64,000 nucleotides of DNA from Bacteroidota bacterium. Its GTDB lineage: Bacteria; Bacteroidota; Bacteroidia; 2-12-FULL-35-15. Under the pieces are notes generated by a model. It ran no database searches. It was given only the letters and a program-made list of their open reading frames with translations, and was not told where the DNA came from. The stretch is taken from the NCBI GenBank assembly GCA_947476185.1, contig CANJPX010000005.1, positions 1-64,000 on the forward strand, in the 5' to 3' direction. The number at the start of each line of letters is the position of its first letter. Within the stretch, counting starts at the first letter, position 1. Both the position numbers and the translations under genes were made by a program. Positions 4,714 to 5,116 of the stretch are shown one piece after another.

Positions 4714-4757
4714 ATGATATTCAAAATTAACTATTTTCCTCTTGCTTTTACTGGCAT

Positions 4758-4801
4758 TAACAAGTTATTAACAACAAAATAACTTCTCAGTAACAACATC
4801 A
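4758..4801. promoter_or_regulatory. Four TAAC iterons with 11-bp period (candidate response-regulator binding site)
   Basis: TAACAAGTTAT|TAACAACAAAA|TAACTTCTCAG|TAACAACATCA read directly from sequence. Confidence 0.6.
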
Positions 4802-4816
4802 CCGCTATTTCGAAAG

Positions 4817-4824
4817 TACATTTG
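4817..4824 (+). promoter_or_regulatory. Bacteroidota-type -7 element TACATTTG
   Basis: Matches TAnnTTTG; 29 bp upstream of the ATG at 4853. Confidence 0.55.
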
Positions 4825-4852: not shown

Positions 4853-5116
4853 ATGAAAAAATTAATTTTAACCTCAGCTACAATTTTATTTATCAGCCTT
4901 TCCTCTTTTGCACAAGATGGCGTAAAAAGCACTAAAAATTGCGAAAAAAAATGTGACATGAAAGAATGTCCGAACAATAACGATTGCAAGAAAAAATGCG
5001 AAATGGGCGAATGTACTGCCGACATGAAATGCCATAAAGCAGAAGCGAAATCTTGTACAAAAAGTTGCAAAATGGATGATGCAAAAAAAGAAAATGCATC
5101 TCCTTCTAACAAATAA
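4853..5116 (+). CDS. Small exported Cys/Lys-rich protein (metallothionein-like composition)
   Basis: Clear signal peptide (MKKLILTSATILFISLSSFAQ) and nine Cys with duplicated Cx3Cx4Cx5 spacing; terminator downstream. Confidence 0.8.
   Translation: MKKLILTSATILFISLSSFAQDGVKSTKNCEKKCDMKECPNNNDCKKKCEMGECTADMKCHKAEAKSCTKSCKMDDAKKENASPSNK

Follow-up and report, generated by a model that had tools for sequence, protein, structure and literature searches.

The region between the divergently oriented genes for a histidine kinase and a small secreted Cys-rich peptide reads as a two-way promoter arranged around a central four-site operator, and the repeat array in its centre is very probably the docking site of the response regulator encoded next to the kinase. 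The features concerned (Table 1) are located in a 64,000-nucleotide stretch of DNA from a member of Bacteroidota, referred to below as the window. The array, both -7 boxes, the fixed distances between them, the conservation of this layout and its co-occurrence with the kinase are seen directly in the DNA. The array is real, and the interpretation given in the initial annotation, according to which the adjacent OmpR-type regulator binds the repeats, activates the small gene and possibly regulates its own operon, is supported and extended by our analysis.

Table 1. Features of the kinase/Cys-rich peptide locus (positions in the window)
Feature	Position	Strand	Remarks
RprY-like OmpR/PhoB-family response regulator, 236 aa	2748..3458	-	Pfam Response_reg + Trans_reg_C; gene overlaps the kinase gene
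Histidine kinase, 420 aa	3451..4713	-	Pfam HisKA + HATPase_c; orthologues aligned
Kinase-facing -7 box	4722..4729	-	CAAAATTA on the + strand, starting 36 bp before the first TAAC; TAATTTTG on the - strand
Operator (predicted), 4 direct half-sites T(T)AACA	4758..4798	+	Read directly; conserved in 22 orthologous loci
-7 box TACATTTG (TAnnTTTG class), promoter of the 4853 gene	4817..4824	+	First base 26 bp after the first base of the last TAAC
Secreted Cys-rich peptide, 87 aa, predicted target gene	4853..5116	+	Signal-peptide-like start, nine Cys

Direct reading of the sequence gives the pattern (TAACN7)x4, with TAAC starting at positions 4758, 4769, 4780 and 4791, i.e. with a period of exactly 11 bp. 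The repeats and the downstream -7 box stand where the initial annotation had placed them, and the three neighbouring genes it had named are likewise correct. The term "iteron", by which it referred to the repeats, is merely a word for a repeat, and nothing suggests a role in replication. Across 22 orthologous loci the half-site extends beyond TAAC, the consensus being TTAACAAGTCAT TAACAAGTCAA TAACTACTCAR TAACA. Given the AT-rich composition of TAAC and its intergenic location here, one could attribute the phasing to chance. However, the three-unit pattern is expected 0.02 times per 64 kb, against two overlapping matches observed in the window, and the reversed pattern used as a control has no match in any of 37 genomes of the genus (in its four-unit form), nor in the samples of 398 and 395 genomes described below. 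The initial annotation had also warned that phased TAAC runs might be common in this genome; they are not, as the four-unit pattern occurs only once in the whole 4.25 Mb, and the only other array of at least three units near a -7 box is a Pho-like one (G000:C8:67070, L209). Chance phasing is in any case refuted by conservation, which is strict in the array and lost in the spacer next to it, and we regard it as practically dismissed.

Orthologues of the kinase were found in 12 relatives (59-77% identity), and further array loci came from a pattern scan and from named uncultured Bacteroidetes MAGs. The 11-bp period, whose loss in orthologous loci would have spoken against the initial reading, is kept exactly in every such locus with complete upstream DNA, with the exception of G023, in which the kinase and the Cys-rich gene are on different contigs, the former retaining two units and the latter the full four-site array. 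Of the 37 genomes surveyed in the genus, 18 encode the sensor domain of the kinase and 17 of these have the array, versus one of the 19 that lack the domain (p=2e-8). The genome with the kinase but no array found (G013) has a contig that ends at the kinase start, and the single array in a genome without the sensor domain (L036 in G022) precedes a PhoU-like-looking protein and has its -7 box at 36 bp. Relatives of the 87-aa peptide, which has no match to a curated family in Pfam or NCBIfam, show a similar distribution: they occur in 8 of the 18 kinase-bearing genomes versus none of the 19 kinase-less ones.

G047 (L044 / L217:2995-3468, with a DUF4920 lipoprotein) and G052 (L050 / L220:5145-5750, with an unknown lipoprotein) each have a second array with the exact 26-bp distance, and these second arrays are likely to mark additional genes of the regulon that lie apart from the kinase. 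In other loci, one of the first two genes on the side of the target encodes a protein containing a TonB C-terminal-like domain, either the second gene (L213:6915-7712, L218:4891-5682) or the first (L219:6822-7553). In the window, the regulator gene is followed by a gene for a bacilliredoxin-like protein of the Disulph_isomer family (2144-2554), which is absent from this place in the relatives examined. Among the relatives compared there is no conserved neighbourhood beyond the module itself; the flanking genes vary between species, and therefore the function cannot be read from synteny, nor does synteny give a further hint of the signal.

The primary sigma factor of Bacteroidota recognises a TAnnTTTG element at -7 together with a less consistent TTTG at -33, the latter being missing in some members of the phylum (PMC7366714). 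The box at 4817 conforms to the former, while at about -33 the TTTG is lacking and the last half-site, TAACAA, is found instead. In a set of 20 arrays collected without the -7 box in the search pattern, 17 have a TAnnTTTG that starts exactly 26 bp past the first base of the last TAAC, and 19 do so if one mismatch is allowed. With the -7 box fixed at 26 bp, the last repeat falls where the -33 element would be, as the initial annotation had proposed. The 18-bp spacer that separates the array from the -7 box is unconserved in the 22 orthologous loci (35% mean pairwise identity), whereas the half-sites and both -7 boxes beside it are conserved. The region has sequence features expected of an OmpR/PhoB operator: direct rather than inverted repeats at 10-11 bp (four TAAC in the same orientation, exactly 11 bp apart), a fixed phase to the core promoter, in which they replace the -35/-33 element (the 26 bp observed in 17 of 20 arrays), and a winged-helix regulator encoded nearby, with the domains Response_reg and Trans_reg_C.

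On the other side of the array, CAAANNTA, which is the -7 box read the opposite way, starts 36-37 bp before the repeats in almost every locus from the genus. Of 34 loci in other families, 22 carry a kinase-facing -7 box 35-37 bp ahead of the first TAAC, compared with about 0.07 expected from its density, and this box formed no part of the search that yielded these loci. The presence of a second, opposed -7 box at a fixed distance marks the region as a two-way promoter whose two halves share the four-site operator between them, and it supports the autoregulation that the initial annotation had considered possible.

The same layout, with spacings of 11-11-11 or 11-10-11, recurs across the class, mostly between a gene for an RprX-like kinase and a gene for a secreted protein. 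A scan of 395 genomes of the class for 11-10-11 spacing and 26 bp to the -7 box returned 35 matches in 34 genomes. The divergent ORF contains a kinase H-box in 23 of the 30 loci examined and has a kinase-like start in about four more, and the gene on the other side usually codes for a secreted protein. These partners include Cys-rich peptides (L084, L085, L100, L135) and DUF1573 proteins (L154, L194, L207); Pontibacter pamirensis (L140) has the same array layout beside a kinase. Three arrays of one family (L174-L176, f63), with 11-10-11 and 26-bp spacing, precede secreted proteins and have no adjoining kinase.

In a sample of 398 genomes from the phylum, with the -7 box allowed at a gap of 10-40 bp, we found 27 arrays with a -7 box, and the distances from array to box fall into sharp classes of 14, 26 and 29 bp. 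The arrays of the 29-bp class (L155-L158, all from one family) are located between dapF and a divergent HtrA-like gene and are perhaps the site of an envelope-stress regulator. A separate case (L173, in G386) consists of long runs of TTAACGTCAAG-type 11-bp units with two arrays about 550 bp apart and no obvious gene, and looks like a satellite.

The 14-bp class is a second type of TTAAC array with an 11-bp period before TAnnTTTG (L159-L172, L177). In the phylum scan its 14 arrays are found upstream of genes for TonB-receptor-like, porin-like and PstS-like proteins, and one of them lies beside a divergent regulator; the resemblance to a phosphate regulon is based on one confirmed PBP_like_2 binding protein, the others having been judged by eye. 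This class is probably the Bacteroidota Pho box. As phosphate promoters of this phylum also seem to carry TTAAC repeats with the same period, the window array could itself be taken for a Pho box bound by PhoB. However, the last repeat in Pho-type arrays is 14 bp and not 26 bp from the -7 box, their half-sites are mostly TTAACATT rather than TTAACAAGTC, the neighbours of the window array are not phosphate genes, and the array tracks the local kinase. Moreover, the regulator encoded beside a 14-bp array has a different recognition helix. A Pho box was rejected for the window array on the grounds of spacing and half-site, and we consider it very improbable.

According to NCBIfam, the best-scoring family for the regulator from the window is RprY (NF051850), with 265 bits, which is below the curated cut-off of 370, and we therefore refer to it as RprY-like. 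RprY is the top-scoring family for all array-linked regulators tested; those from other families reach 267-311 bits, compared with 447 bits for a true Bacteroides RprY. The array-linked regulators have in common the recognition helix GRSxDVFIxKxRKYL, which differs from that of the PhoB-type regulator mentioned above, and this shared helix presumably belongs with the shared half-site.

Taken together, we propose that the array is probably the operator of the adjacent RprY-like regulator, which would bind it as a tandem tetramer, use the -33 position to activate the small gene, and regulate its own synthesis. The phosphorylated regulator would occupy the four direct half-sites head to tail in a cooperative manner. 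As the last half-site stands in place of the -33 element of the promoter of the small gene, the regulator bound there would recruit RNA polymerase (class II activation), and the secreted Cys-rich protein would thereby be switched on. The same bound array, which lies 29-30 bp upstream of the -7 box that faces the kinase, would autoregulate the kinase-regulator operon. What counts against this explanation is that the kinase-side -7 box is unrecognisable in about a third of the distant loci, that the regulator falls short of the score set for RprY, its closest named family, and that a repressor role has been ascribed to the superfamily of P. gingivalis RprY (PMC6032018). Binding by the regulator, its dependence on phosphorylation, activation rather than repression and the nature of the signal are all features that we infer from the sequence.

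The main rival to class II activation is a model in which the same regulator acts with the opposite sign: by occupying the -33 position it would repress one promoter or both, and the signal would relieve the repression. The array does overlap this position, and the assignment of P. gingivalis RprY to a superfamily whose members are said to act as repressors (PMC6032018) makes repression possible. On the other hand, the consensus leaves no TTTG at -33 for the polymerase, so the promoter should be weak if unaided, and a fixed distance of 26 bp would be more expected of a regulator that touches sigma than of one that simply occludes the promoter. In general, tandem arrays of the PhoB/PhoP type that lie over -35 usually activate. 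We therefore judge repression to be unlikely and retain activation from the -33 position as the preferred reading.

As for the signal, the periplasmic domain of the kinase in the window contains 4 Cys within the segment CLDKKTCMNMGSSCFEGDSDC. When the stretch is counted across loci, kinases encoded beside Cys-rich-peptide partners have 4-5 periplasmic Cys (9 loci) versus 1-2 in those beside other partners (11 loci), a perfect split with no overlap (p=8e-5); where a haem c-like lipoprotein or a TonB-domain protein takes the place of the peptide partner, the number of sensor Cys drops from 4-5 to 1-2. On the tree this pattern requires only about three changes, and the AU test does not reject a single origin (p=0.28), hence the covariation is a lead and not a test, and its bearing on the signal is suggestive. 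A speculative possibility, to which we give distinctly less weight than to the operator itself, is that the module works as a closed loop that senses either a thiol-reactive metal or the redox state of periplasmic thiols, in which the periplasmic Cys of the kinase would sense the ligand, the regulator would induce the secreted Cys-rich protein, and this protein would buffer the same ligand and quiet the sensor.

The recurrence of the layout across the phylum with nearly base-pair precision means that such switches can be read straight from the DNA. The grammar comprises four TTAAC half-sites spaced 11-11-11 or 11-10-11, with one -7 box at a distance of 26 bp and the opposite box at 35-37 bp, and its rigidity would allow operators and their partner genes to be found over the phylum from sequence alone. 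It separates RprY-like operators from Pho-type promoters with a similar half-site at 14 bp, and it provides a predicted regulator for uncharacterised secreted proteins such as Cys-rich peptides, DUF1573 proteins and c-haem-like lipoproteins.

The literature searched, from which subscription journals were mostly absent, gave no description of a TTAACA consensus, an RprY motif, a Bacteroidetes Pho box or two-component systems with Cys-rich or DUF1573 partners, nor a published binding-site consensus for RprY or RprY-like regulators of Bacteroidota. Operators of this kind are known, but those papers contained no account of the strict two-way architecture that accompanies RprY-like systems across Bacteroidota. 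The module resembles RprX/RprY of Bacteroides and Porphyromonas in having an adjacent kinase and regulator with a closely similar recognition helix; it differs from the Bacteroides system in the scores of the array-linked regulators (265-311 bits, with the cut-off at 370) and in the array, which was not found at the Bacteroides rprXY loci examined. Bacteroidota Pho-type promoters share with it the TTAAC direct repeats of 11-bp period before TAnnTTTG and differ in the 14-bp distance, the TTAACATT-like half-site and the phosphate-type genes. As in OmpR/PhoB tandem operators generally, the array lies over the upstream core-promoter element and the cognate regulator is encoded next to it. The 11-bp direct repeats are also those of the E. 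coli Pho box and of the PhoP box of M. tuberculosis (a 7-bp motif with a 4-bp spacer), where PhoP binds head to tail to repeats of 11-bp period, four repeats being bound cooperatively and tetra-repeats more tightly (PMC4832192). Unlike these boxes, the array in the window has a TTAACA half-site and four sites phased both to TAnnTTTG at 26 bp and to an opposite -7 box, and arrays of its type conserve the 11-11-11 or 11-10-11 spacing over an entire class.
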